From contig JANYDA010000007.1 of NCBI GenBank assembly GCA_025360005.1, positions 62,001 through 126,000 on the forward strand: 64,000 bases of DNA. The letters run 5' to 3'. The notes beneath the pieces are model-generated. The model searched no databases, was not told where the DNA came from, and was given only the letters and a program-made list of their open reading frames with translations. Source of the DNA: Fibrobacteria bacterium. GTDB lineage: Bacteria; Fibrobacterota; Fibrobacteria; UBA11236. Shown here in pieces: positions 1,487 to 38,700 of the stretch (positions within the stretch are counted from its first letter, which is position 1; every line of letters begins with the position of its first letter). A program made the translations under genes and the position numbers.

Positions 1487-3661
1487 CTACAACTCCGTGG
1501 TCGCCGCCAATACTTGCTCAATGGTGGTATCCCCCCGCAGCACCAACTCAATCCCCGCCTGCCGCAAGGTCTTCATGCCTTCCTTTTCCGCGCATGCCTG
1601 TATGTCCATGGTGGGCGCGTTCTTGAGGATGAGCTTCTTGATCTCGCGCGAGCAGTTCAGCATTTCGAAAATGCCGATCCGGCCCTGGTAGCCCACGCCG
1701 TTGCAGGTCACGCAGCCTTCGCCCATGTGGAACTTGACATCCGAACCGTTGATGCCGGGCAGGTGGAGCTGATCGATCATTTCCTGCGGCGGCGAATAGG
1801 GGACTTTGCAGCGCGAACAGATCTTGCGGACCAGGCGCTGGGCCACCACCAGGTTCAGGGAAGAGGCCAGTAGCAGGGGCGGGATGCCGATGTCGACGAA
1901 GCGGGCGATGGCGCTGGATGCGTCGTTGGTGTGCAGGGAGGAGAAGACCATATGGCCGGTCAGGGCCATCTTCACCGCGATGTCGGCGGTTTCGTTATCG
2001 CGGATTTCCCCGATGAGGATGGTATCCGGATCCTGGCGCAGGATGGAGCGCAAAGCGTTGGCGAAGGACATGCCGATGGCGGCGTTCACATGCACCTGGG
2101 TCACGCCTTCCATATGGTATTCCACCGGGTCTTCCACGGTGATGATGTTGGAGGTGACGTCCTTGATCTGCTGCAGCGCCGAGTAGAGCGTGGTGGATTT
2201 GCCGGATCCGGTGGGACCGGTCACCACGATCATGCCGTGGGGCTTGGAGATGTTCTCGCGGAAGATTTTGAGCTCATGATCGGTGAAGCCCAGGTTGTAC
2301 ATGCTCTTTTCGTAGGCTTCCTTGTCCAGGATACGCAGCACGCATTTCTCGCCGAAGATGGTGGGCAGGATGGAAACGCGCACGTCCACTTCCTTGAGGC
2401 CTATCTTCACCACCATGCGGCCGTCCTGCGGGAGGCGGCGCTCGGCGATATTCAGATCGGACAGGATCTTGATGCGGGTGATGATGGCCTGATGGGAATG
2501 GCGCGGCGGGGACATGACCCGGCGCAGCTCCCCGTCGATGCGGTAGCGCACCGAGAGTTCCTTTTCCATGGGCTCGATATGGATATCGCTGGCGCGGTCG
2601 CGCACCGCGTTGGCGATGAGCATGTTCACCAGCTTGATGATGCCCAGCTCGGCGCCGGCGCTGGCGGCTTCCTCGACGCCCATCTCCTCTTCGACCTTCT
2701 TGATGTACTGCACCTCGGTGGCGAGGTCGGCCATCAGATCGGAAGCGCTGCGATGGGAGGCGATGTCCCGGTAATAGCGGTCGATGGAGACGGTGATGTC
2801 TTCCAGCGTGCCCAGGATGGGCGTGATGCGCAGATCGGTCTGATCGCGCAGGTTGTCCAAAAGGCGCAGGTTAGAGGTGTCCAGCATGGCCACGGTAAGC
2901 TCGTCATCGGCCTTTTCCAGGGCGATGCAATGGTATTCCCGCGCCACGCGTTCCGGGATCAGGGCCACCACGTTCAAGTCCGCGGAGGCGAACTGCTTCG
3001 GCGTCGCCACGGGCACGCCCAATTGGCTGGCCAGGAAATGCGTCTTCTGGAATTCGTCGATGAAGCCCAAGGAGACGAGCGCGTCGCCCAAGCGGAGGTT
3101 GGTGGTTTCCTTCTGGAAGTCCAACGCCTTCTTAAGCTGCACGGAAGTGATGATGCCGTTCTCCACCAGGATGGCGCCCAGGGCCTGCGCCTTCTTGGAG
3201 AAATCCATGCGCAGGGATTTCTTTTTATGCTCGATGCGCAGGGACGCGACGTAGGTCTTCAGGATCTTGCCCAACTCCTGGGGAGGCAGGGGCAGGTAAA
3301 GGATGTCGTCCGCGGCGAGCTCGGTCTTGGCCTCGGATACCTGGGCCATGCCGCCCTCGTTGACCACGGCCAGCAGGCAAGGCACCTTGGCGATTAGCTT
3401 TAATGTCGCTACGTCGTGCACAAAGGATTCCAGGGAATCCCCGGGGCTGAAAATCGCCAGGGCCATCTCGCATTGGAGCTTGTCGGAATGCCCGAAATTG
3501 CCGGCGAAGAGCTGGAGGAATTGCCCGACATCCGCCGACTTCAGGAGTTGCGCGAATTGCTGGAGCGACTCCTTGCGATAGGCCAATAGGGTGGTTTTAA
3601 GTGGAGCGAGATTTTCCACGACAGGTCCTGCTTCGGCTGCGGTTCTGGTTAAGGTCGTCAT
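1487..3661 (-). CDS. pilB: Type IV pilus extension ATPase, PilB/GspE family, with receiver-like N-terminus
   Basis: 724 aa. This hexameric cytoplasmic ATPase powers pilin polymerisation. Residues about 155-300 resemble the MshEN/GspE N-terminal region (LGAILVENGIIT, LGVPVA). The T2SSE ATPase core follows, with Walker A GPTGSGKST, an Asp box (ITVEDPVEY), RQDPDTILIGEIRD, and HTNDASSA. A zinc-binding tetracysteine (CSRC...GCVTCNGVGYQGR) is near the C-terminus. The first ~150 residues look like a receiver domain lacking the acceptor Asp and the conserved Lys. The start has SD AAGG 5 nt upstream. It lies apart from the main pilus operon at 8.7-21.5 kb. The family is PilB rather than PilT, judging by the MshEN-like region and Cys motif. 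Confidence 0.93.
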   Translation of the reverse strand: MTTLTRTAAEAGPVVENLAPLKTTLLAYRKESLQQFAQLLKSADVGQFLQLFAGNFGHSDKLQCEMALAIFSPGDSLESFVHDVATLKLIAKVPCLLAVVNEGGMAQVSEAKTELAADDILYLPLPPQELGKILKTYVASLRIEHKKKSLRMDFSKKAQALGAILVENGIITSVQLKKALDFQKETTNLRLGDALVSLGFIDEFQKTHFLASQLGVPVATPKQFASADLNVVALIPERVAREYHCIALEKADDELTVAMLDTSNLRLLDNLRDQTDLRITPILGTLEDITVSIDRYYRDIASHRSASDLMADLATEVQYIKKVEEEMGVEEAASAGAELGIIKLVNMLIANAVRDRASDIHIEPMEKELSVRYRIDGELRRVMSPPRHSHQAIITRIKILSDLNIAERRLPQDGRMVVKIGLKEVDVRVSILPTIFGEKCVLRILDKEAYEKSMYNLGFTDHELKIFRENISKPHGMIVVTGPTGSGKSTTLYSALQQIKDVTSNIITVEDPVEYHMEGVTQVHVNAAIGMSFANALRSILRQDPDTILIGEIRDNETADIAVKMALTGHMVFSSLHTNDASSAIARFVDIGIPPLLLASSLNLVVAQRLVRKICSRCKVPYSPPQEMIDQLHLPGINGSDVKFHMGEGCVTCNGVGYQGRIGIFEMLNCSREIKKLILKNAPTMDIQACAEKEGMKTLRQAGIELVLRGDTTIEQVLAATTEL

Positions 3662-3931
3662 ATCGCCTTGAAAAAAGGTTGGAAAAACATAGCACTATTC
3701 CCAATTCGCGCCTAAACGCTCTTTGGGCGGGTTGAGAACGTATGGAGTATGATATCCATCAAATCCGGTTCAGGCTGCTTGCGGGTTTGGACTTCCCGGG
3801 GCCAGGATCCGTAATCCCGGATTCGACTCCCCCTTCCAAGCCGAAAACCCCCTTCCTTTCCACGAAGCAAAAATAGCTTTGAATTCGGCTGCGCGCGCGC
3901 GCCGATTCCCTATATTTATAGGAAAATCGCC
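3662..3931. other. Divergent intergenic region pilB / TIGR02147 gene
   Basis: 270 bp that must hold promoters for pilB (leftward) and for the regulator-lipoprotein pair (rightward). It contains an alternating GC tract at about 3890-3903 close to the regulator start. No convincing -35/-10 pair or palindrome was found by eye. Confidence 0.35.
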
Positions 3932-4771
3932 ATGGTCGACCTTTACCAATATACCGACTACCGGAAATATCTTCGTGATTATTACGAAGCAAAAAGGACC
4001 TCCTTCAAGGAGTTCACGCATCGTCATATCGCCCATGCCATGGGCTTCAAGTCTACAGGCACCTTCGCCCAGATACTGCAAGGCAAAACCAACATCTCGC
4101 CGCAAACCATCCTGCGCTTTGTGCAATTGCTGGGACTGAAAAAAGAAGAGGCGGATTATTTCGAATTGCTGGTGCTCTTCAGCCAAAGCAAGGGCCACGC
4201 GGAGAAGAAGCGCCACTTTGAAAAGATCCTGTCCTTCCCCAAGTCCAATCTCAAGCAGGTGGACTCGACGCAGTACGCCCTCTATGAGAAATGGTATTTC
4301 AGCGTCATCCGCGAAGTGCTCGCCTTCCACCCTTTCGTGGACGATTTCCGCGAATTGGGGCGCATGCTCACGCCGTCCATTTCCACCGTCGAAGCGCACA
4401 AGGCCATCCGCCTGCTGGAAGAATTGCAACTGATCCGGAAGAACGAGGCCGGCGTTTACGAAAAATCCGATCCCGTCATCACTTCCGGCTACGACACGCG
4501 TTCCCTGGCCGTGAACCAATTCATCGTGGAGACGCTGGATCTGGCCAAGGTGGCTTTGGATCAACTGCCGCGCGATGAGCGCAGCCTGTCGGCCCTGACC
4601 TTGAGCATGCCGGAGGAAGGCTACGCCATGATCGAAGAAAAGGTGAAAGCCTTCCGCCGCGAACTGCTGGAGCTGGCGCGCAGCTGCACGGATCCCAAGC
4701 GCGTCATCCAGGTCAATTTCCAGATTTTTCCGGTCACGCGGAAGCTCGATGAGGCGAATCATGACGCTTAA
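3932..4771 (+). CDS. TIGR02147/DUF4423 family protein, putative regulator (copy 1)
   Basis: 279 aa. Members of this family are abundant in Fibrobacter. The N-terminus has the typical YxDYRxYLRDYY opening, then a helix-turn-helix-like region at about residues 28-65 (IAHAMGFKSTGTFAQILQGK, ISPQTILRFVQLLGL). A long C-terminal DUF4423-type region ends in QVNFQIFPVT. No signal peptide or membrane segment is present, so it should be cytoplasmic. The function is not established; the HTH-like segment suggests DNA binding. SD-like AGGA lies upstream of the ATG. Its 3' end overlaps the DUF2341 lipoprotein start by 11 nt. A paralogue with the same partner lies at 37816-38700. Confidence 0.85.
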   Translation: MVDLYQYTDYRKYLRDYYEAKRTSFKEFTHRHIAHAMGFKSTGTFAQILQGKTNISPQTILRFVQLLGLKKEEADYFELLVLFSQSKGHAEKKRHFEKILSFPKSNLKQVDSTQYALYEKWYFSVIREVLAFHPFVDDFRELGRMLTPSISTVEAHKAIRLLEELQLIRKNEAGVYEKSDPVITSGYDTRSLAVNQFIVETLDLAKVALDQLPRDERSLSALTLSMPEEGYAMIEEKVKAFRRELLELARSCTDPKRVIQVNFQIFPVTRKLDEANHDA

Positions 4772-6500
4772 CAAGCAAGCTCCTGGCAAGCAAGCCTTCG
4801 CCCGGCTGTCCCTGGGCGTCTGCGCGGGAGCCCTGGCGCTTTTGGCATTCGCGCATTGCGGCAAGAATCCCATCGAAGCGACGAAGGGCGGCGGCGGTTC
4901 CGAGGCTGTGGCGCTGGTAGGCGCTTTTGAATACCCGGATCACAGGCCCGCCATCGCGGCGAGCGTGCGCTTGCGTCCCAGGCTGTTCCTTTCCGATACC
5001 GCCGGCGCGGGGGCCACCGCTCCCCTACCCGGTTCGGTTTCCGGAGGCACCATTATCGATGCCGTTACCGACAACACCGGCGCTTTCCGCATGGACTCCG
5101 TCAAGCGCGGCGATTATTTCCTGGAGATCAAGGACAGCGCTTCGCGCGGGCTCCTGATCCCCTGCACTTTGACCGGGGATTCCTCGGAGGTGAAACTGGC
5201 GTCCGCGGCCCTGCAGCCTACCGGATCGGTGACCGGGTCGATAGTTGCGCCGGAGGGCTTCGCCGGACGCACCTACGTGCAGGTGTACGGATTGGACCGC
5301 CAGGTGAAGACGGATTCCGCCACAGGCAAGTTCAATCTGGGCGATCTGCCCCAGGGAACCTACACGTTACGGGCGGTATACAGCGCCCCCGCCGTGGATC
5401 CCCGCGAAATCGACAGCGTGAATTCCGTTTCGGATTCCTCCACCGACATAGGCGCGGTACGGCTGGCCAGCTTCGAGAACGAAAACTATGCGGCCTGGCC
5501 CCAGTCCCGCCTCATCTACATCAATACCACCGCCTCGGGCGCCAACGTGGCCGGCAACGTGGCCGATTTCCCGCTGCTGGTGCGCCTGGATAAAAACAAC
5601 TTCGACTTCTCCCAAAGCCGGGGTTTGGGCCGGGACATCCGTTTCGCGGACGCCAAAGGGAAACGCCTGCGTTACGAGGTTGAGCGTTGGGACTCGGCCG
5701 GATCGGTGGCGGAGCTGTGGGTGCGCCTCGATCGCGTGAACGGGAACTCCAACTCGCAATTCATCACCATGCATTGGGGCCTGGCCGGCGCAGAGGATCT
5801 CACCGATTCCCGCCAGGTGTTCGGCGCCGATGCCGGTTATGCGGGCGTATGGCATTTGAACGAGGACGCGCCCGATACCTTGTCGGCGGATCTCTATAAG
5901 GATGCGGTAGGCTATGATCCCGCGGCCGATAGGGTAGCCTCTGCCAACCGGGACGGCGTGATCGCCCACGGCGCTTCTTTCAACGGCAGCGACTACATCA
6001 CCGTGCCGGTGGCCAATCCGCTTTTGCAGCCGATAGCCATGGTCACGGTTTCCGCCTGGATGCGGGCGGCCAGAACAGCTTCGTTGGGGGGCACCCTGCT
6101 TTCCATGGGCGACACCTACAACCTGCGCGTCAATCCCGGCGGGACCGGGCGCTTCTCCTACTACGATGGAACCACGGTCCGGGGAGTGGAAACGCCCGCC
6201 TCCGTCAACCTGCTCGACTCCGCCTGGCATCAATTGGCCGCGACCTTCGGCGATGGCGTCATGTCGATTTATGTGGACGGGAAATTTTCCGCGAAGGTGG
6301 GCGTGAAGGACGCCTTCGACTACCGCTTTTGGCCCGCCTTCGTGATTGGCCGGCACGGGAACCGCAAGCCGGGATACGATTTCTACGGGAACCTCGATCA
6401 AGTGGAGGTTTCCGGGGACGTATCGCGCTCGGCGGATTGGATCAAGCTCACGTTCGAGAACGAACGGATCGGGTCCAAGTTGACGGAGTTGCGGCCATAG
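4761..6500 (+). CDS. DUF2341 / LamG-like surface lipoprotein (copy 1)
   Basis: 579 aa. I chose the ATG at 4761 rather than the in-frame ATG at 4749 because GAGG at 4751-4754 gives a proper SD. The N-terminus is a hydrophobic signal ending in AFAHC, a non-canonical lipobox (His at -1). After two carboxypeptidase-regulatory-like beta modules (about residues 55-135 and 150-235) comes a DUF2341 domain (about 250-360: FPLLVRLDKNNFDFSQS, YAGVWHLNED). A concanavalin-like LamG fold follows at about 390-575 (WHQLAATF, IYVDGK). These folds bind carbohydrate or protein at the cell surface. It is translationally coupled to the TIGR02147 gene, and its paralogue is at 36120-37823. The ligand is unknown. 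Confidence 0.85.
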   Translation: MTLNKQAPGKQAFARLSLGVCAGALALLAFAHCGKNPIEATKGGGGSEAVALVGAFEYPDHRPAIAASVRLRPRLFLSDTAGAGATAPLPGSVSGGTIIDAVTDNTGAFRMDSVKRGDYFLEIKDSASRGLLIPCTLTGDSSEVKLASAALQPTGSVTGSIVAPEGFAGRTYVQVYGLDRQVKTDSATGKFNLGDLPQGTYTLRAVYSAPAVDPREIDSVNSVSDSSTDIGAVRLASFENENYAAWPQSRLIYINTTASGANVAGNVADFPLLVRLDKNNFDFSQSRGLGRDIRFADAKGKRLRYEVERWDSAGSVAELWVRLDRVNGNSNSQFITMHWGLAGAEDLTDSRQVFGADAGYAGVWHLNEDAPDTLSADLYKDAVGYDPAADRVASANRDGVIAHGASFNGSDYITVPVANPLLQPIAMVTVSAWMRAARTASLGGTLLSMGDTYNLRVNPGGTGRFSYYDGTTVRGVETPASVNLLDSAWHQLAATFGDGVMSIYVDGKFSAKVGVKDAFDYRFWPAFVIGRHGNRKPGYDFYGNLDQVEVSGDVSRSADWIKLTFENERIGSKLTELRP

Positions 6501-6642: not shown

Positions 6643-8508
6643 TTACTGACGGAGGAAGCGGGCGCTGGAGCGATGCCCCTTTTCCGCCCAAGCCGCGATG
6701 TACATGCCGGACCGCAAGCCGGAGAGATCCAAAGCATCGGTGATGCCGGAAGCGTTCACGCTTAAGTCCGCCCTGGTCTCAATCTTGCCGTCCAGAGCGA
6801 GGATTTTCACGCGCAGGCTTCCGCCGGCCGCGCCCTGGAAACGGATCGCCGATCCCCCCATGGAGAGAAGGGGCCGGGAATAAAGGCCGGAAGCCCGCAG
6901 TGACGGGCCCGCGATGCCGACCGGAATCGCTTTCACGTCGGCGAGCTGCCCGCGGATGGCGCCGCTCTTGTTCCTGGCGGTGTGGATGTTGATATAGAGG
7001 CTGTCCATCAGAAGCGCGCTGCCCAGGACTTTGGTGAAGGGCGTGACATCGGTTCTGGCGGTCCAGAGTCCCTGCGCGTATAACCCGGTCATGCTATCCG
7101 CATTCATGGTGAACGTCTTGCCGATGTCCAGGACCACGCTTCCGGCCGTGCCAGCTACCTGTTTATGGAAATGGGCCGCGGTGAAAGTGGAGTCCAGGCT
7201 ATCCGCCACCACGGTATAGCGGACATTGGCGCTGTCCATATCCATGGTGACCAGGCCCGCGCCGAAGGCTTTGGTGGCCACAGAGGGAGTCTCCTGGGAG
7301 CCTTCCAAACGGAAAATCCGGCCGCTGCGCGCCGGCAGCATGGCGGTTCCGCTGATTTCCCCGGCCGTATGGGCGGCGGTGTGGACGTTCAGGTAGACGC
7401 TTCCCGAGAGCAGATCCTTTATGAATTGATCTTTTGAGAACCCCGCCGTAGCCACGGTGGAAAGGTTTATGGCCGCGGTGATCCCGGTCGCCGAAATACT
7501 CGCGCTGTCCAACGGCACCACTATGTTCGCGCCCTTATGGAAATGGGCCGCGATGACCGGGCCCGTCAGTCCCGCATAGGCCGTTTTAACGGAAAGGGTA
7601 TTATTGTCGGAGGACAGCTGGAAAATCCCCAGGCCTTTCCCGGTGATCCCCGTTGCGCTACCTATTAATTTCGCCGCGAATACCCTTTCCTGGCTGGGCA
7701 CCAATTGGCCGCGCATCAGTCCCGATCCATGCGATTTGGAATGGAAATTGATGTAGACGCTGCCCTTCTTCAGGGAATCCAGGAAGGCGACGCTGGTGAT
7801 GTTGTTGAGCGGGGCGGAAAGGAGCTTGTGCGCGGAAATCATGCCTCCCGAAGTATCGGCCGTGAGGTTTATCGCCACGTCTCCATTCATGCCGGCCGGC
7901 CCGATATGGAAATGCGCCAAGGTTATGGTATCGTGCTCGGCTTCCGCCGGTTGGGAATAAACCACCCACGTGGTCAAGGTGGAATCATCCGGCGATAATT
8001 GGAAGAACCCCATGCCGTTGGCGGCCGTGGTCACCGGCGTGCCCTCGCTGGTTCCCTTGATATCGGCCGTGAATTGCATGTCCCTTTCCAATTCCAACTG
8101 CCCGCGGATCTCCCCGTTCGGATGCGCCGCGGTATGCACGTTCACGTAAAAGAGGCCTCTGAACAAGCTGTCGAGAGTGGATTTGGCGATTCCGGTCCAG
8201 ACCATGGAAACGGAATTTCCCCGGATCCAGGTGGTGATGGGCATGGAGGGCGGATTGCTTACGCCTCTCAATCCGGGATGGAAATGGGCGGATGTGACGG
8301 GTCCCGTCAAATTTGTGAAGGCCCCGTACACCCAAGCCGAATCCATGGCGTCATTCAGCTTGATGCCGAATACGCCCTTGGCTTTGACGGAATCCAAGCC
8401 TTCCTGATGGCCGTCCAGCCATGCCGAGAAAATCATGCCTGCCGATGCCTTGCCGCCGCATAGCGCCAGGCACCCCGCCACCATTGATATCTTAATCCCC
8501 TTATTCAT
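6643..8508 (-). CDS. Secreted protein with four CHRD domains and a sorting-tail-like C-terminus
   Basis: 621 aa from the ATG at 8508, which has a strong SD (GGAGG). An upstream in-frame ATG at 8541 is poorer. A Sec signal ends near KASA. Four CHRD domains follow, each marked by an AHFH motif and a later N(V/I/F)H...G.(I/M).G signature (AHFHPG, AHFHIG, AHFHKG, AHFHKQ). CHRD domains occur in chordin and in many bacterial exported proteins; their bacterial role is not established. The last ~75 residues (VKILALDGK, LRSGMYI) resemble type IX-type sorting tails of FCB bacteria. It lies downstream of pilQ on the same strand, about 240 bp away, so it probably has its own promoter. Confidence 0.82.
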   Translation of the reverse strand: MNKGIKISMVAGCLALCGGKASAGMIFSAWLDGHQEGLDSVKAKGVFGIKLNDAMDSAWVYGAFTNLTGPVTSAHFHPGLRGVSNPPSMPITTWIRGNSVSMVWTGIAKSTLDSLFRGLFYVNVHTAAHPNGEIRGQLELERDMQFTADIKGTSEGTPVTTAANGMGFFQLSPDDSTLTTWVVYSQPAEAEHDTITLAHFHIGPAGMNGDVAINLTADTSGGMISAHKLLSAPLNNITSVAFLDSLKKGSVYINFHSKSHGSGLMRGQLVPSQERVFAAKLIGSATGITGKGLGIFQLSSDNNTLSVKTAYAGLTGPVIAAHFHKGANIVVPLDSASISATGITAAINLSTVATAGFSKDQFIKDLLSGSVYLNVHTAAHTAGEISGTAMLPARSGRIFRLEGSQETPSVATKAFGAGLVTMDMDSANVRYTVVADSLDSTFTAAHFHKQVAGTAGSVVLDIGKTFTMNADSMTGLYAQGLWTARTDVTPFTKVLGSALLMDSLYINIHTARNKSGAIRGQLADVKAIPVGIAGPSLRASGLYSRPLLSMGGSAIRFQGAAGGSLRVKILALDGKIETRADLSVNASGITDALDLSGLRSGMYIAAWAEKGHRSSARFLRQ

Positions 8509-8745
8509 ATAACCTCCGCGCTGTTGAAAAGGAAATGCCAATCCCGCAGGGAAGATAAAGGATGGTCAAATGGGAAGCAAGCTTTATAATCAGGCTAGAT
8601 TTTGGTGCTAAATCAGGAGTATTCTACGCCGCTGAAAAAGGATATGAAATAAGCGAGGGTACGATCGAAATATATGCGATCGCGCACTTGCACCGAATGC
8701 CGAACTATTGGACAAGAAGAAAGCCTAGATAAGACCTTGCGGGGC

Positions 8746-10143
8746 CTACTTCGTCGTGCCCGAGTCCGCCTTCACCCCTCCGGCCTCGTACTCCAGATCG
8801 GAAGATTTGCGGATGATCTTGGGCTTAATCTCGATGATGAGGTTGGTCTTGGTCTTGACCAGCAGGCGATGGGTGAACAAAGCCCCGATGAGGGGGATCT
8901 GGCCCAGTACCGGCAGCTTGCGGAGTTCTTCGGTTTCTTCTTCGGACATCAATCCCGCCAGGAATACCGTCTGGCCGTCGGCCACGCGCACCGTGGTCTT
9001 GGTGGTGCGGATTTTCACCAAGGGCAGATCCGAGTTGGGGCCCTTGAAACCCGTGATGGAGCTGACTTCCGGCTCCAGGTTCAGGGTTATTTCCGAGTCT
9101 TCGTTCACGTGCGGCATCATCTTGATCTTGACGCCCACGTCCTCGTGCTGCACCTGCTGGTTGGCGCCCCCGCCCGCCGTGGCCGCAGAGTTGTAGGACT
9201 GGATGACATAGGGGATTTTCTGGCCGATGAGCAGGCTGGCTTCCCGGTTGTTGGTGGTGGTGAGCTTGGAGTTCATCAGCACGCGGGCGTCGCCGTTCTG
9301 AATCAGCATGTCCAAGAGGATGTTGAGGCTGATGGGGCCGCGCGAGCCGCCTTTCAGCAGGTAGCCGTCGCTCACGGGAACCTGGGGAAAGGCGATGCCG
9401 GCGGAGACGGGGGACAGCGCGCCCCAATCGATCCCGTATTTGTCGGTGTTGTCCACGGTAACTTCTATGAGACGGGTCTCCAGCAGCACCTGCGTATGGG
9501 GATGATCGATGGAGCGCACGATGCGTTCGATTTCATTGATGACGCGCGGGCTGGCGTAAGCCACCAGGCGGTTTCCGCCCCGGTCCACCTTGATGTTCTT
9601 GCTGAAGTCCGAAAGCAAGGTGGCCACTTCGTCCGCGTCCGCGTAGTTGAGGGCGATGACGTAGCCGGATTGCCCCACTTCGTCCTTGAGCTTGCCGGGT
9701 TCGCCGATGAGCACGGAGTTGCCGATGATTTCGTAGGAGAGGCCCGCGGCGCGCACGATGAGATCGATGGCCTCCGCCACCGGCGTCTTGTTGAGGATGA
9801 TGGAGATCTTGGCCTTCTGCACGCCTTCGCCGGCTACGAAGTTCATGCTGGAGCGGTCGGCCATGACCTTGAGGATTTCCGACAGGTTGGCGTCCTGGGC
9901 GTTGAGGGAGATGGTCAGGCGCAGCAAGGGATTGGGATCCTTGGTGATGATGGGGGATTCCGCTTTCGGCTCCACGGCCGTCACGGCCACGGAACCGCCG
10001 GATAACGCGCTGACGGACGCGGCGGAGGAATCCGCCACGCTGAGGCAAAGGATAGAGAGCATCGCCAGGCGCGAGGCAAAGGCGGTGAGAAGGGCGCTGG
10101 GAAGGGCGTCGTGAGGTCCGGTCCCGGTTGGGTTGGCATGCAT
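8746..10143 (-). CDS. pilQ: Type IV pilus secretin PilQ
   Basis: 465 aa from the ATG at 10143, with SD AAGGCGGA. The open frame extends further upstream into pilP, but that start would overlap it. PilQ forms the outer-membrane ring through which the pilus passes. A signal-like hydrophobic segment lies at residues ~20-40. A secretin/TonB N-terminal (STN) domain follows (LRLTISLNAQDANLSEIL), then a secretin N1-type domain (YVIALNYADADEVATLL, VINEIERIVRSIDHP). The secretin core includes QVLLETRLIEV, GQKIPYV, VRVADGQTVFLAGL and a final IEIKPKII. It is shorter than proteobacterial PilQ because AMIN domains are absent. It is the last gene of the pilMNOPQ block, 13 nt after pilP. Confidence 0.93.
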   Translation of the reverse strand: MHANPTGTGPHDALPSALLTAFASRLAMLSILCLSVADSSAASVSALSGGSVAVTAVEPKAESPIITKDPNPLLRLTISLNAQDANLSEILKVMADRSSMNFVAGEGVQKAKISIILNKTPVAEAIDLIVRAAGLSYEIIGNSVLIGEPGKLKDEVGQSGYVIALNYADADEVATLLSDFSKNIKVDRGGNRLVAYASPRVINEIERIVRSIDHPHTQVLLETRLIEVTVDNTDKYGIDWGALSPVSAGIAFPQVPVSDGYLLKGGSRGPISLNILLDMLIQNGDARVLMNSKLTTTNNREASLLIGQKIPYVIQSYNSAATAGGGANQQVQHEDVGVKIKMMPHVNEDSEITLNLEPEVSSITGFKGPNSDLPLVKIRTTKTTVRVADGQTVFLAGLMSEEETEELRKLPVLGQIPLIGALFTHRLLVKTKTNLIIEIKPKIIRKSSDLEYEAGGVKADSGTTK

Positions 10144-10156
10144 GTCTTGGTCCGCC

Positions 10157-10747
10157 TTATTTTTTCTGGAAGTTCCGGTTGCCGGACAAATCGTAGCTGT
10201 AGATGCCGGTATCGTCTTCCATCGTGATCTCTTTGCTGGTGATCCTGGATACTTTGCGCGCACCCACCATATCGCCCACGTCCACGGACTTGGAGCGCTC
10301 GCCGTCCATGACGATGGCGGTATGCTGGCCATAGTCGTCGGCGATGATGGCGGTGAGCTTTACCTTGTCCTCGGGCTCGGCCGGGGCCGCGGGCAATTCG
10401 TCCGCATCCGCTTTGGCCGCGGGGGTTTTCTTGGGCGCGGCGCCTTTGGCGGCGGCCACGCGGCGGGGCGCGGACGCGGCGGGGCCCGCGTTGGGGCTGG
10501 CCACTTCGCGGCGGCGGCCCGTCATGGGATCCCGTCCTCCCGGGTAGGAGAAGCTGGCGCGGATAGTCAGCACTTCCTCCATATGATCCACAAGATCGAT
10601 GAACTTCTGATCATAGCCTTCGGTGGTGGCCAGGGATTGATTGACTTCGTGGCGGAACCCGCTATTCTGCGAGAAGACGCGTAGGGCAAGGCCGAAGGCC
10701 AGGACCATGGCCAGGACGGCCGCGACAGTGAAGGGGTTAAAGCGCAT
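10157..10747 (-). CDS. pilP: Pilus assembly protein PilP-like
   Basis: 196 aa. One N-terminal transmembrane helix (about residues 7-25) is followed by the SYPGGRDPMTGRR segment, matching the RDPF-type motif of PilP lipoproteins. An Ala/Lys/Pro-rich linker (about 85-120) leads to a small beta domain (KLTAIIADDYGQHTAIVMDGE, VDVGDMVG) of the PilP/GspC homology-region type. PilP links the PilN/PilO inner-membrane complex to the secretin. Unlike classical PilP there is no lipobox, so it is membrane-anchored by the helix. It lies between pilO (2-nt gap) and pilQ (13-nt gap). Sequence is divergent; position supports the call. Confidence 0.78.
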   Translation of the reverse strand: MRFNPFTVAAVLAMVLAFGLALRVFSQNSGFRHEVNQSLATTEGYDQKFIDLVDHMEEVLTIRASFSYPGGRDPMTGRRREVASPNAGPAASAPRRVAAAKGAAPKKTPAAKADADELPAAPAEPEDKVKLTAIIADDYGQHTAIVMDGERSKSVDVGDMVGARKVSRITSKEITMEDDTGIYSYDLSGNRNFQKK

Positions 10748-10749
10748 CT

Positions 10750-11331
10750 TCAGCCTTTCTTCACTCGAAAGGTATCGAGGTGAAACTTGATGGATGCGCT
10801 CCGGCCGCCGGAGACCCGGACAGGAGCCTGCCCCTTGCCTCCTTTTTCCGGAGCAATGCTGGTGACGGGTTTGGCATTTTCCGTGACTTCAAATGATGTT
10901 AAAGCCAGTACCCTGCGGCTGTTTTCCAACTTGGAACAGAATTCGCCGAAGCTGAAGAAATCGCCTTCCAACTGGATCTCATAAGAGTATGTGGTCACGC
11001 GCCCCTCGACCGTGGGCGGAAAGGGGCGGAGCGAAACCAGGCGCATTTTCAAATCACCGACGCAGGTGGTCAGGAAATCGAAGAGAACGGATTCCTGGGA
11101 GGCGGAATCCTTCTGGCCGGCGAATTCCATGTTTCGATAAACCAGATCCCGGACATGGTTGAGGTTTTCCGACACAATCTTAGCGGTGGCCAATTGATTT
11201 GAAATGATGATACGCTGCTTTTCCACTTCCTTGAAGCGGGGAACGAATCGCGATGTGTAAAAGATGTCCGCCGGAATCACGCCAATGGCGGCAATGGCCA
11301 TGGCAACGAGCAAGGTTTCGCCGGTTTTCAT
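10750..11331 (-). CDS. pilO: Pilus alignment protein PilO
   Basis: 193 aa. The start at 11331 overlaps the pilN stop as ATGA and has SD GGAAG 5 nt upstream; the longer frame to 11565 lies inside pilN. A short N-terminal transmembrane helix (TLLVAMAIAAIGVIPADI) is followed by a periplasmic coiled coil (FKEVEKQRIIISNQLATAKI). A ferredoxin-like domain (TYSYEIQLEGDFFSFGEFCSKLE) then follows, as in PilO. PilN and PilO form the inner-membrane alignment complex of the pilus machine. Confidence 0.83.
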   Translation of the reverse strand: MKTGETLLVAMAIAAIGVIPADIFYTSRFVPRFKEVEKQRIIISNQLATAKIVSENLNHVRDLVYRNMEFAGQKDSASQESVLFDFLTTCVGDLKMRLVSLRPFPPTVEGRVTTYSYEIQLEGDFFSFGEFCSKLENSRRVLALTSFEVTENAKPVTSIAPEKGGKGQAPVRVSGGRSASIKFHLDTFRVKKG

Positions 11332-11918
11332 TGCCGCTTCCATTTCGCGGTATAAGCGGAGAAATCGAAAGCGACCCGTCCGCCCTCCTCTTTGCTTTCC
11401 GTCAGGTTCAGTTGGGTTTTGATGAATGTGTCCGAAAAACTGGTGTCGCTTCGGAGCAGGTTCAGATATTGGTCCAGGATCACGAGCTGATCTTGGCGGG
11501 AATTCGCGTACCCGAATCCGCGTACGTTCAGCGCGTTGTTCATGAAGGAAAAACCCGTAATCCAATAATTGTCGGGAAGATGCTTAGCCAGTGAGGCCAG
11601 TTTCCCTGTCCAGAAAACGCCTTTGTTTTGGAGGCTGTTCAACAGCTCAATGTCCGATTTGTCGACGATCAGTTTCGCTGCCGTGTATTTCCGGTATTCG
11701 GTTTGGAGCCTGGCCACCTTTTCCTTCTCGCCGGCGAGGACGCTCTCCATCTGAAGAATGGTCAGGCTTGAATACAGGATGGAGATGATGAAGAAGCCGA
11801 AGCAGCCGAGGCCCAGGATCACAATAAGGCGATGCCGCCTTTCCGCCAAGAGTTCTCGTTCGCGCAGTTCCCGGATCAGGTTGAGGCGGTAAAAGGATAG
11901 TCCGGATTTGGAAATCAT
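11328..11918 (-). CDS. pilN: Pilus alignment protein PilN
   Basis: 196 aa. The short cytoplasmic N-terminus (LSFYRLNLIREL) resembles the INLLP-type motif by which PilN docks in PilM. A transmembrane helix at about 32-52 and a periplasmic coiled coil plus ferredoxin-like domain (YWITGFSFMNNALNVRGFGYANSRQDQL) follow. Start and stop both overlap the neighbouring genes by 4 nt (ATGA), indicating tight translational coupling of pilM-N-O. Confidence 0.85.
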   Translation of the reverse strand: MISKSGLSFYRLNLIRELRERELLAERRHRLIVILGLGCFGFFIISILYSSLTILQMESVLAGEKEKVARLQTEYRKYTAAKLIVDKSDIELLNSLQNKGVFWTGKLASLAKHLPDNYWITGFSFMNNALNVRGFGYANSRQDQLVILDQYLNLLRSDTSFSDTFIKTQLNLTESKEEGGRVAFDFSAYTAKWKRQ

Positions 11919-12868
11919 GTTCCTCCCCTGAGGGCCAGCGCCACCGCCAAATCGAATCGGCCGGGAAAGGCTTCGCGGGGAGACCCGAGTTGGCCGGCAA
12001 GATCCATTTTCTTGAGCGGTAGGCCGGTGCCCTTTTGGATCGCTTCAATCAATTGATCCTGAGCGAGGTATTCGCCCAGTATGAGGATTTCCAGGAACCC
12101 GGATGTCTGCGCGCTCTTTTCATAGAAGACCAGGGAACGGGCGATGTCTTCCGCCAGGGCGCGGATGCGCTTGTCGCGATCCCCTGAGGATGGGTCGAGC
12201 GCAAACACGTCTTCCGCGGCGAAATATAGGTTGCGGTTGAAGAAGGGAGAGAGTTCTCCATCGATGACAATGGTGGAAACCTGCGGTCCAATGTGCAGGG
12301 CTACCAAGGGGTGATCCCCTTCCCGGCCGACTTTCCACGCCCAGAGCGCATTCGCTACCGCCACGGGAAGCACGTCCACGGCAACCGCCTTTAGCCCGGC
12401 TTTTTCCAGCAGACTCAGATGGCGGGTGAGCAGTGAATTGGCCGCCAGCGCCACCATCACCTGCGCGACTCCACCCGTGGATCCTTCGTCTTCATCCAAT
12501 ACTTCGTAATCCATGGTCGATGTGGCCACCTCGAAATGAACGCTTTTCCGGAGCTCCAGGCGGAGAGCCTGTTCCATTTCATCACCCGCCAGCTTCCGGA
12601 ACGGAAGTTGGGTCGCGAATACCTGTTTTCCAGACAGGCAAGACACCACCGGGTCCCGTGTTCCGATGTCGAGCAGGTTCCTGACTTTGCGCAAGCCGTC
12701 CAGCAAACCGACGTCCTCGGAATAATCGCCTTTGATCTCTTCCAGCTTATCCACGGTATACCCGCTGCGGCCATCGGTAGAGATCCGAGCCGCACGGATG
12801 GCCAGGTGATCATGTTCGATGCCGAATATGAACCCGGGCTTGGAAGTTTGGATGCTGCGCTTCACCAT
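11915..12868 (-). CDS. pilM: Pilus assembly actin-like ATPase PilM
   Basis: 317 aa. I chose the ATG at 12868, 10 nt after the preceding minor-pilin gene, because the longer frame overlaps that gene. PilM is a cytoplasmic actin/FtsA-fold protein that binds the PilN N-terminus. Visible hallmarks are the first phosphate-loop region (FIFGIEHDHLAIRAARI), a middle region AVDVLPVAVANAL, a second nucleotide-binding strand (ALHIGPQVSTIVI) and the C-terminal EILILGEYLA. It overlaps pilN by ATGA. Confidence 0.88.
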   Translation of the reverse strand: MVKRSIQTSKPGFIFGIEHDHLAIRAARISTDGRSGYTVDKLEEIKGDYSEDVGLLDGLRKVRNLLDIGTRDPVVSCLSGKQVFATQLPFRKLAGDEMEQALRLELRKSVHFEVATSTMDYEVLDEDEGSTGGVAQVMVALAANSLLTRHLSLLEKAGLKAVAVDVLPVAVANALWAWKVGREGDHPLVALHIGPQVSTIVIDGELSPFFNRNLYFAAEDVFALDPSSGDRDKRIRALAEDIARSLVFYEKSAQTSGFLEILILGEYLAQDQLIEAIQKGTGLPLKKMDLAGQLGSPREAFPGRFDLAVALALRGGT

Positions 12869-36119: not shown

Positions 36120-37823
36120 CTAAGGCGCGATGCGCACCAGGGTGGATCCGGGCTTCTGGGTTTCGTAGTCCAAGCGGATCCGGAACGCATTCCAAGGGGA
36201 CAGGGAGACGCGCGGCTCGTCCAGCGTACCCCGGAACCAAAGGTCGGCGGGCGAATAATCCAAGGCCATGTAGTCGTAGCCGAAGCGCCAGAACCCGGCA
36301 TAATTCGATCCGCGGGTGGTGCCGGGATCGGAAGCCAGCTCGCGGCCGTCCACGAACAGGAATTGCCCCTGCGGCGACAAGCGGGCGGTGACCTGGTGCC
36401 AGGCCCCGTCCGTATAGGCGGCGGCGCTGGAAAGGATTTTGCGCGTGCCCGGGACGGATTGCCCGCCGCTAGGGACGAAAACCCCGAAGTGCAGGATGCC
36501 GGCATTGTCCAACCAGATATGCCGATCATTGTGGACGCTGGGGCCGGTACGCTGCGAGCCGAATCCCGCCAACTTGCCCGAGGCGCCCGCCTGCGCGCGG
36601 AACCAAAGCGAAAGCGAGAAAACGTTGGGGTTGAAGTAGGCGCGCGTGGCGGAGACCGCCTGATCCTTGCCGTTCAATTCCAGCCCCTGGTCGCTGATGC
36701 CGTCGGCGAATCCCGCATGGTCCAGCCCCGTGCCGATGGCGGGATTACCCTCGCCGGAAGCGTCCGGGAAGCGCGTCTCCCCGGTGGCGGCCGTTTCCCT
36801 TTGCAGGTGCCACGCGCCGGCATAGCCGTCGGCGGTGTCGAATACGGAAGCGGAGGCGGATTGGCCCGGAGCCCCGGGCTTGTTCCAATACATCTTCAGG
36901 AATTGGGCCGAGTCGCCGGGACGCAGGGTATCGGCGCGCACCCATACGGAGGCCTTGCCCGCCAAGGGATCCCAGCTTTCCACCTCGTACGCCAGGCCCT
37001 TGCCCGCGGCGTTGGCGAAGCGCAGGTCCAGGCCGGTGGATTGGGTGAAATCGAAATTGGATCGATCGAGGCGCAGCAGCAGGGGGTAGCCGATAGCCAA
37101 TCCCGTATCTTGTATGTTACGCGTATCGACCAGGATACGGGCCGAGTCCCCCCAGGCCTCATGCTTTTCGGATCCGGGGGCATGCGCCATTTCCAGATCG
37201 CCGAGGTAGGCGGGCGCATCCGGCACTACCGTCACGCCTATGACCTCCTTTTCCGCCACTGTGGGCGAAGCGGCGATCATCTTGAGGCTGAACTGGCCGG
37301 CCGGCACCTGCGGGATCAGGAAGACCCCGGAAGAGTCGGTGCGCACGCCTTTTTCCAGGCCGTACACCATAACGTAGGCGCCGCCCGTTGTCCCGGCAGG
37401 CAAAACGATCCGGCCCTGCACGTTGGAAGTGGCGCCCATGGCGGTGGTGCCCAGGTCCAGGTTGTCGCTGCTTCCGTTGACGCTGGCGCGCCGAATGGCC
37501 CCGGTCCGGCCCGCAGCGGCTTCCAGGGCATAATCGCCCAGGTAGACAGAATCGAATCGAAAGGCGCCGCGCGCGTCCGTACGGGTATCGTCCAGCAGGC
37601 GCAGCGATCCCTTGGCCAAAAGTCGCGAAGTGTCCTGTAGATAATCGGCCGGGCGCAGGCGCACCAGCACGTCCGCCGCGGGAGAGCCGTCCGCATTGGC
37701 AATGCGGCCGGCCACGGTGGCTTCCGTTTCGGAGGCGCCGCCCGCCAACCGCTCCGGGCCCTGGCAAGCGGCCGCCAGCAAGGCCGCCGCAAGCAGGAAT
37801 CGGGACGCTAAGCGATCAGCCAT
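36120..37823 (-). CDS. DUF2341 / LamG-like surface lipoprotein (copy 2)
   Basis: 567 aa. The signal ends in a good lipobox (ALLAAAC). Two carboxypeptidase-regulatory-like modules (about 30-115 and 120-200) precede DUF2341 (about 225-335: YPLLLRLDRSNFDFTQS, GYAGAWHL). A LamG-type domain follows (about 365-560: LSLWFRAQ, WHQVTARLSPQGQFLFVDG). The domain order and many segments match the lipoprotein at 4761-6500. Its start overlaps the stop of the TIGR02147 gene by 8 nt, so the two proteins are made together. A role in binding a surface polymer or a partner protein is inferred from the folds only. Confidence 0.87.
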   Translation of the reverse strand: MADRLASRFLLAAALLAAACQGPERLAGGASETEATVAGRIANADGSPAADVLVRLRPADYLQDTSRLLAKGSLRLLDDTRTDARGAFRFDSVYLGDYALEAAAGRTGAIRRASVNGSSDNLDLGTTAMGATSNVQGRIVLPAGTTGGAYVMVYGLEKGVRTDSSGVFLIPQVPAGQFSLKMIAASPTVAEKEVIGVTVVPDAPAYLGDLEMAHAPGSEKHEAWGDSARILVDTRNIQDTGLAIGYPLLLRLDRSNFDFTQSTGLDLRFANAAGKGLAYEVESWDPLAGKASVWVRADTLRPGDSAQFLKMYWNKPGAPGQSASASVFDTADGYAGAWHLQRETAATGETRFPDASGEGNPAIGTGLDHAGFADGISDQGLELNGKDQAVSATRAYFNPNVFSLSLWFRAQAGASGKLAGFGSQRTGPSVHNDRHIWLDNAGILHFGVFVPSGGQSVPGTRKILSSAAAYTDGAWHQVTARLSPQGQFLFVDGRELASDPGTTRGSNYAGFWRFGYDYMALDYSPADLWFRGTLDEPRVSLSPWNAFRIRLDYETQKPGSTLVRIAP

Positions 37824-38700
37824 GCTTGGCCCCGGATTTGGAAAGCGGGAACAATTGCAGGTTGAGCTGGTAGACGGAATCGGCGCCCTTTTCCTTTTCG
37901 ATGTCCTTCATGAGCTCGCGCCGGAAGGAGCGGATCCGCTCTTCGTAATGCTTGTACCGCGACCGGGGTATGCTGAAGGTTACTGTGGACAGGTTGCGCA
38001 CGTCCGCGCGGAAGCGATCGATGGCGCCTTTGGCGAGGTCCAGACCCTCCAGCACGAAATTGTTAGCTTGCAAAGCCGCATTGCCGTAGCCGGTGGTGAT
38101 GAGCGTATGCTTCACCTTGTATTTCCCCGCCGGCGTCCTCTCCACGAATCCCAGCTTCTCCAACAGTTCCACTCCCATCCTGGCTTCTTGGGGCTTGATG
38201 GGCGGCTCCAGCAGCTTGCCCAGCTTCTCCGCATCGCCATCGTAGTCCTGGCAAACCAACAGCTCCCGCAAGGCCGAATAATACCATTTGCTGTAGAACT
38301 CGTACTGATGCAACTCCACCGGCTTGACCTCGGTCTTGCGCAGGGCCATCAGCTTCTCGTAATAATGCTTGCGCTCAAGATGGGAAGGCGCCTGATTGAA
38401 CAGCACCAAGTTCTCGAAATAGGCGGATTGCTTTTTATCCAGCTTGAGGATGGCTGACAGCTTGAAGATCATGGACAGGGAGATGTCGCGCTTGCCCTTG
38501 ATGATCTTGGAAAACAGCCCAGGATCGAAGCGGCCTTCCCGGCCGATGAAGCGGTGCGAGAATTTCTTATCGACTGCTTTGCGGCCGCGGTAATACGCGT
38601 CCAGGTATTGGCGGTAATCCAGGAAGGCGAAGATGTCGGCGCCGGCCGTGTTTGCCGGGTTGGTTTTGTGGAAGGGATCCGCGGGTTCGGGCTTGCTCAT
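37816..38700 (-). CDS. TIGR02147/DUF4423 family protein, putative regulator (copy 2)
   Basis: 294 aa. It has the same architecture as copy 1 at 3932-4771: FLDYRQYLDAYY opening, an HTH-like region (HRFIGREGRFDPGLFSKIIKGK, ISLSMIFKLSAIL), a YFENLVLFNQA segment, the KWYYSALRELL motif and a C-terminal LNLQLFPLS. Its N-terminus is about 20 residues longer. No signal or membrane segment is present. It overlaps the DUF2341 lipoprotein start by 8 nt. A hairpin repeat at 38786-38808 lies upstream. Function is inferred to be regulatory from the HTH-like part. Confidence 0.85.
   Translation of the reverse strand: MSKPEPADPFHKTNPANTAGADIFAFLDYRQYLDAYYRGRKAVDKKFSHRFIGREGRFDPGLFSKIIKGKRDISLSMIFKLSAILKLDKKQSAYFENLVLFNQAPSHLERKHYYEKLMALRKTEVKPVELHQYEFYSKWYYSALRELLVCQDYDGDAEKLGKLLEPPIKPQEARMGVELLEKLGFVERTPAGKYKVKHTLITTGYGNAALQANNFVLEGLDLAKGAIDRFRADVRNLSTVTFSIPRSRYKHYEERIRSFRRELMKDIEKEKGADSVYQLNLQLFPLSKSGAKHG

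Follow-up and report, generated by a model that had tools for sequence, protein, structure and literature searches.

A preliminary description of the window, by which we mean the whole 64,000-nucleotide stretch of Fibrobacteria bacterium DNA that was analysed, noted that a gene of the TIGR02147 family is twice followed by an overlapping lipoprotein gene. TIGR02147 (Fsuc_second; Pfam DUF4423) is a regulator family without an assigned function. The arrangement had been read as a duplicated unit, as one functional module, perhaps made of a regulator and its surface effector, and as a route to the function of the family. Is the lipoprotein a true partner of the regulator and, if it is, what might the regulator read?

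Two regulator-lipoprotein cassettes in the window

In cassette A, on the forward strand, the gene for a 279-aa regulator (3932-4771) overlaps by 11 nt the gene for a 579-aa lipoprotein starting at ATG 4761 (4761-6500); the overlap would be 23 nt if the alternative ATG at 4749 were used. Cassette B is on the reverse strand and comprises a 294-aa regulator (37816-38700) and a 567-aa lipoprotein (36120-37823), with an overlap of 8 nt. Both regulators are clear members of TIGR02147 (290.9 bits for A and 257.4 bits for B, whole-protein, curated cut-off 50) and of DUF4423 (PF14394; 104.4 and 103.3 bits, gathering cut-off 30). Both lipoproteins contain carboxypeptidase-regulatory-like, DUF2341 and Laminin_G_3 domains, the first being sub-threshold in A. 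Lipoprotein A is built of two beta modules, DUF2341 and LamG (AF2 model, pLDDT 84.5), and lipoprotein B has the same domain order.

The claims of two regulator-first pairs with overlaps of 11 and 8 nt, and of a DUF2341 and LamG layout shared by the two lipoproteins, thus held for this locus. The claim of duplication failed in the form of one recent event. Sequence identity between A and B is only 33% for the lipoproteins and 37% for the regulators and the genome contains approximately 31 cassettes, so a single recent duplication was rejected and A and B are regarded as two members of this larger set.

Pairing across the Fibrobacterota

The 5.0 Mb genome from which the window comes has 34 TIGR02147 matches, nearly all followed by a lipoprotein gene, giving the approximately 31 cassettes that include the two described above. 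TIGR02147 is present in 114 of 121 sampled Fibrobacterota genomes. The highest number of matches per genome is 85, in a congener, with 63, 56 and 54 in others and 34 in a genome from another family of the same class. A profile scan of genome contigs with the regulator alignment (A2) gave matches only in Fibrobacterota and relatives, and a tblastn search against plasmids gave no match.

The pairing was evaluated for 419 unique full-length Fibrobacterota regulators with readable downstream DNA, with flanks taken from many genomes. A lipoprotein gene is immediately downstream of 402 of these (96%), of which 396 were recognized by an automatic rule and six (L005, L139, L159, L160, L286 and L493) by reading the 23 failures. 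Another of the failures, L414, has a downstream partner that is membrane-anchored and not a lipoprotein. There is no intergenic gap in 306 of the 396 pairs, and in 198 the overlap is the 4-nt ATGA. As background, 845 kb of the window's genome contain 228 other pairs of close genes on one strand, and the second gene encodes a lipoprotein in 9 of these (~4%). Regulator and lipoprotein are thus paired in a near-obligate manner in the Fibrobacterota.

Within single genomes, distances between regulators and distances between their lipoproteins are correlated (Mantel r = 0.53, 0.47 and 0.25; P = 0.0005-0.0035), and we therefore conclude that cassettes diverge as units. The preliminary description had proposed counting the co-occurrence of TIGR02147 genes with lipoprotein genes and comparing the trees of the two families. 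The co-occurrence held and is near universal across the phylum, and the distance correlation agrees with joint divergence; together they support the reading of a regulator and a surface effector as one functional module.

About 4% of the regulators have no adjacent partner, and several of these retain the candidate contact residues described below. Some may act on distant partners and others may be decaying. In L056 (1523-2470 of contig C30, in the window's genome) the regulator frame continues into VGTSSDSGNPVD, which resembles the lipoprotein motif. A true regulator-motif fusion was considered and rejected in favor of a decaying cassette, in which VGTSSDSGNPVD is probably what remains of the motif of a lost lipoprotein. 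An apparent regulator-lipoprotein fusion in L344 (open frame of 849 aa) was rejected because of an assembly gap of Ns.

A short motif shared by the partner lipoproteins

Partner lipoproteins in the window's genome are 230-908 aa in length. Carboxypeptidase-regulatory-like domains were found in 16 of 30 partners, LamG in 8 and DUF2341 in 7; others have LRR, PKD or nothing recognized. Given these low counts, DUF2341 and LamG were rejected as the defining feature of the partners, and the emphasis first placed on them is not general. What the partners have in common is a short N-terminal motif that had not been reported. Separately, the NCBIfam model for the TafC family fimbrial protein is matched by 5 of the 30 partners (alignment A3; best E 2.5e-6).

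The motif is approximately G-[GT]-x-[TS]-[ED]-[TAV]-[GET]-N-[GTP] and mostly starts 5-10 residues past the lipid cysteine. Its information content is 16.7 bits, compared with 10.3 bits for a control segment and 7.7 bits for shuffled sequence. In lipoprotein A, the putative lipidated cysteine is residue 33 (4857-4859, forward strand), which is invariant in partner alignments A3 and A4, and the motif is GGGSEAVA (4890-4913, forward strand). In lipoprotein B the motif GGASETEA (37719-37742, reverse strand) begins 8 residues after Cys20, and scores 20.5 with a motif model trained without the window's genome.

Exclusivity was evaluated over 845 kb of the 5.0 Mb genome, using a motif model built from other genomes alone. 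All 42 lipoproteins not adjoining a regulator scored 5.9 or less, and the three regulator-linked lipoproteins that passed a strict lipobox filter in the same 845 kb scored 20.5, 20.2 and 6.4. Phylum-wide, a score of 5 or higher is reached by 202 of 224 linked lipoproteins, and most of the others show a shifted or degenerate form. These results establish the motif and, over the 845 kb covered, its restriction to regulator-linked lipoproteins. The membrane-anchored partner of L414 also retains it, as AGGSATGNAL.

Codon use at motif sites is the same as genome usage, and therefore the constraint acts on the protein. On these grounds a DNA element within the lipoprotein gene was rejected as an explanation of the motif. 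In the AF2 model of lipoprotein A, residues 35-47, which lead from the lipid cysteine towards the first strand, have pLDDT <50, and the motif core is at the end of this stretch, in or just past the predicted disordered tether. The motif is thus predicted by the model to be a linear tag rather than part of the fold.

Architecture of the regulator

In the AF2 model of regulator A (pLDDT 90), five helices form the N-terminal domain, and a helical connector carrying the conserved residues W121 and R127 leads to a winged-helix-like part and then to a C-terminal part (residues 183-268; helix/extended, with helices at 192-211 and 228-251). The five-helix domain corresponds to an XRE-like helix-turn-helix (HTH) part (residues 1-85; 3932-4186, forward strand) for which all matches are weak: HTH_31 at 19.5 bits is under its cut-off of 27, profile matches in the PDB are to HigA, CI and C.BclI, and structural matches have Z of ~8. 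The PDB profile search with the regulator returned nothing stronger than these weak HTH matches. Residues 109-183 align with ArsR/HxlR-type winged helices (VIA-align, Z 8-9). Because these Z scores are modest (8-9), we treat the resemblance to XRE/HigA and ArsR/HxlR proteins as likeness and not as membership. Foldseek alone gave no match with E <0.001, and there was no TPR regulator in the fold-search list, an absence that does not exclude one. The Pfam DUF4423 match spans residues 107-268 (4250-4735, forward strand). No signal peptide is evident in the regulator sequence.

Covariation between the motif and the regulator

We analyzed covariation in 299 non-redundant pairs, using regulator A residue numbering and motif positions counted from 0. 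Motif divergence is best explained by the C-terminal part of the regulator (standardised coefficient 0.245); the coefficients of the winged-helix part, the HTH and the connector are 0.128, 0.114 and 0.039, respectively. For residues past the motif and for the signal peptide, no comparable pattern of divergence with the regulator was found in these pairs.

A phylogenetic null was generated by simulating each motif position along the regulator tree, with binarised traits; the tree is a single FastTree estimate. The mean covariation Z is near zero, as the null expects. Residues 182-270, which hold 34% of cells, contain 24 of the 36 outliers with Z >4 and 12 of the 16 with Z >5, none of the latter being in the HTH. 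When all segments were binarised by one automatic rule, residues 182-270 contained 25 of the 39 outliers for the motif, compared with 8 of 33 for control segments (Fisher test, P = 0.0009). It should be noted that the signal-peptide controls also gave a few high values, with a maximum of 10.2.

Several of the covarying residues have matched chemistry. Arg242 pairs with Glu4, and Lys242 shifts the preference towards Asp4. A non-basic residue at 242 goes with loss of the motif acid at position 4 (211/44 vs 8/36) and, on the regulator tree, the motif is non-acidic at 14 of 16 inferred losses of basic 242, where the baseline is 0.23. The charges are reversed in L133 (Glu242 with Lys4), and L414, with Ala at motif position 4, has Gln at 242 and is again matched. 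Gly2 is found where 182 or 246 is Phe or Leu, and Ser/Thr2 where these residues are smaller or polar; Asn7 pairs with Asp218 and Arg217, and Thr5 with Gln198. The strongest covarying positions on helices 118-128 and 239-252 are ordered antiparallel to the motif, but this order is sensitive to the Z threshold (P = 5e-5 above 4.4, 0.015 above 4.0 and 0.14 above 3.5).

The covariation is clearly present and strong, but it is computational, rests on sequences without the coordinates of the model, and cannot alone prove contact. A binding site for the motif in the DUF4423 part is thus a proposal made from covariation, and direct contact is inferred. A first run was limited to 137 pairs and was made without a tree, and several settings were run overall. 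Permutation within 160 very fine clusters gave no signal, due to low power or to another cause.

Operator-like repeats upstream of the regulators

Upstream of 135 diverse cassettes, TATATT is the most enriched 6-mer (62 seen, 31.6 expected), and other highly enriched words include TGTTC and its repeats. In the clade with the motif VTDTGNT (Fibrobacter-group), GTGTTC occurs ~2.6 times per 160 nt of upstream DNA, compared with 0.06 expected, and always in one orientation. In the clade with the motif TEAEST, GTGTGGAC is found upstream in place of GTGTTC. The tandem GTGTTCYC..GTGTTC is nearly unique per genome and, in 7 of 8 genomes, is located ~110 nt before the start of the VTDTGNT-clade regulator. 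A second conserved tandem GTGTTC site (GTGTTCTCTGGACACAAGGTGTTC) is located away from the regulator (G019:C1:191142, G047:C1:741044, G080:C1:697128 and G099:C74:2186), and could be either a second target or a coding coincidence.

In cassette A, a candidate operator element, TTTCCACGAAGCAAA (3857-3871, forward strand), is similar in three orthologous loci; the support is weak, as the upstream alignment has four sequences only (L001, L221, L222 and L223). A candidate -10 element, TATATT (3911-3916, forward strand), is conserved in the orthologues. The clade-specific direct repeats before the regulators are a plain result and look like operators, but this role is inferred from sequence and there are no DNA-binding data. 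They fit the prediction of paralogue-specific autoregulation without proving binding.

A proposed self-regulating operon

We propose that the cassettes are operons that each regulate themselves. From the first gene would come a cytoplasmic one-component regulator, with an XRE-type DNA-binding domain and a DUF4423 sensor, whose targets would be the direct repeats immediately before that gene, serving as operators. The second gene, whose translation is coupled to that of the first, would encode a lipoprotein with a tag of approximately GGxTETxN in the disordered N-terminal tether of the mature protein. The DUF4423 part would bind the tag of its own partner while the partner is still a cytoplasmic precursor; as the regulator has no signal peptide, binding would precede export. 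Tag binding would alter the grip of the regulator on its operator, so that lipoprotein synthesis follows export. An upstream operator, coupled translation and tag binding would together form an autoregulatory loop that reads the export of the partner. Insulation between paralogues would come from tags and sensors that change in step, and from operators that differ between clades.

On balance we favor this reading, by a narrow margin, as there are no binding, expression or export data. DNA binding and the precursor as the physiological ligand are inferred only, and so is the sign of the feedback. Negative feedback, in which accumulating precursor turns the operon down, is slightly favored over positive feedback because it requires fewer assumptions. 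Under positive feedback, each surface protein would be expressed either fully or not at all. A bolder reading is that these are phylum-wide modules, with dozens of mutually insulated regulators per cell, each binding the tag of its unexported partner, and each component of the surface coat adjusted, or bistably switched, separately according to its export status. We consider this extension tentative and are inclined, slightly, to doubt it.

Alternative explanations

The alternative that survives best is that the motif is a sorting or surface-export signal for lipoproteins that is read by a machine of the envelope, with the regulator only controlling the operon and the covariation arising from co-inheritance. 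Known sorting signals of lipoproteins sit just past the lipidated cysteine, as does the motif, and the regulator and lipoprotein are indeed co-inherited. However, the motif was exclusive to regulator-linked lipoproteins in the 845 kb evaluated and is kept in the non-lipoprotein partner of L414. Moreover, the covariation is above the simulated phylogenetic null and is focused in one region of the regulator, with no such concentration for post-motif residues or the signal peptide. We consider this explanation unlikely.

Less likely still is that the regulator senses, between or within cells, a pheromone-type peptide cut from the exported tether and re-imported. A short, disordered and variable linear motif with matched receptor residues would suit a peptide ligand, and lipoprotein-derived peptide pheromones are known in enterococci. 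Known lipoprotein pheromones derive from the signal peptide, however, and the signal peptide here lacks a comparable covariation pattern. The tag is between a lipid anchor and a folded domain, so its release would need two cuts, and the cassettes examined have no evident linked importer or protease. Finally, a DUF4423 protein that is mainly an export pilot or chaperone holding the precursor by its tag, with DNA binding secondary or absent, would suit the tight translational coupling and one-to-one recognition, but is very unlikely given the XRE-like domain and the clade-specific operator-like repeats before the genes.

Comparison with known systems

The self-regulating operon that we favor resembles several known systems and differs from each in some respects. 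Regulators of the PrgX/PlcR/Rgg group are HTH proteins of similar length in which a C-terminal part binds a short peptide of an adjacently encoded exported protein. In contrast to these, the cassette sensor is modeled as a winged helix plus a C-terminal part with no evident TPR array, and its ligand would belong to the tether of a large mature lipoprotein instead of coming from a signal peptide or a small pheromone gene. In SecM, in type III chaperone-regulator circuits and in FlgM, a cytoplasmic control element responds to the product that has not yet been exported, and expression follows export. The cassettes differ in having one dedicated HTH regulator per lipoprotein, a short N-terminal tag, and dozens of apparently insulated paralogues per genome.

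The Bacteroidota LES is also a short motif past the lipid cysteine of surface lipoproteins, but it is an acidic signal directly after the cysteine and marks surface lipoproteins generally. The cassette motif does not qualify as an LES, as GGxTExxN is 5-10 residues past the Cys and, in the 845 kb evaluated, is found only in regulator-linked lipoproteins; it is also kept in the non-lipoprotein partner of L414. HigBA toxin-antitoxin and ECF sigma/anti-sigma pairs are likewise two coupled genes, one of them for a DNA-binding protein, with proposed action on each other and on their own promoter. The cassette partner, however, is an exported lipoprotein, where those pairs have a small toxin or an inner-membrane anti-sigma factor, and its length of 230-908 aa in the window's genome excludes membership of HigBA-like systems, in which the toxin is small (an RNase of ~100 aa).

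TIGR02147 is not mentioned in the literature searched, nor is a lipoprotein partner, a motif or covariation for TIGR02147/DUF4423; most subscription journals were outside this search, and the absence is not proof of novelty. A Bdellovibrio proteome table names a DUF4423 protein (PMC12546842). The F. succinogenes genome paper reports few regulators near cellulase genes, and the passages searched there do not describe regulator-lipoprotein pairs (PMC3079729). Cell-envelope proteomics papers report many uncharacterised lipoproteins (PMC6851124, PMC4619616), and a phylogenomic study of the Fibrobacteres counts other paralogous families (PMC4704652).

The hope that the locus would be a route to the function of TIGR02147 is met in part: the cassettes supply a partner and a candidate ligand, and the function itself remains inferred. 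Candidate operators and named candidate contact residues are further gains for this very large regulator family without a function. If the proposal is true, the Fibrobacterota have a large undescribed family of self-regulating surface-protein switches, with up to ~85 copies per genome. This bears on the control of a large set of surface proteins in Fibrobacter, for which few regulators of attachment to plant fibre are known. Matched tags and sensors are also candidate orthogonal peptide-recognition pairs.

Genes surrounding cassette A

Cassette A is flanked by genes like those of type IV pilus or type II secretion systems, namely a GspE/PilB-like ATPase (1487-3619) and, on the reverse strand at 8746-12868, genes that by inspection are secretin- and PilM/N/O/P-like. 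Convergent with the cassette is a gene for a protein with four CHRD domains (6643-8541, reverse strand; 246 bits). A short protein followed by a PIN-domain-like protein, encoded at 816-1473 on the forward strand, resembles by inspection a VapBC toxin-antitoxin pair.
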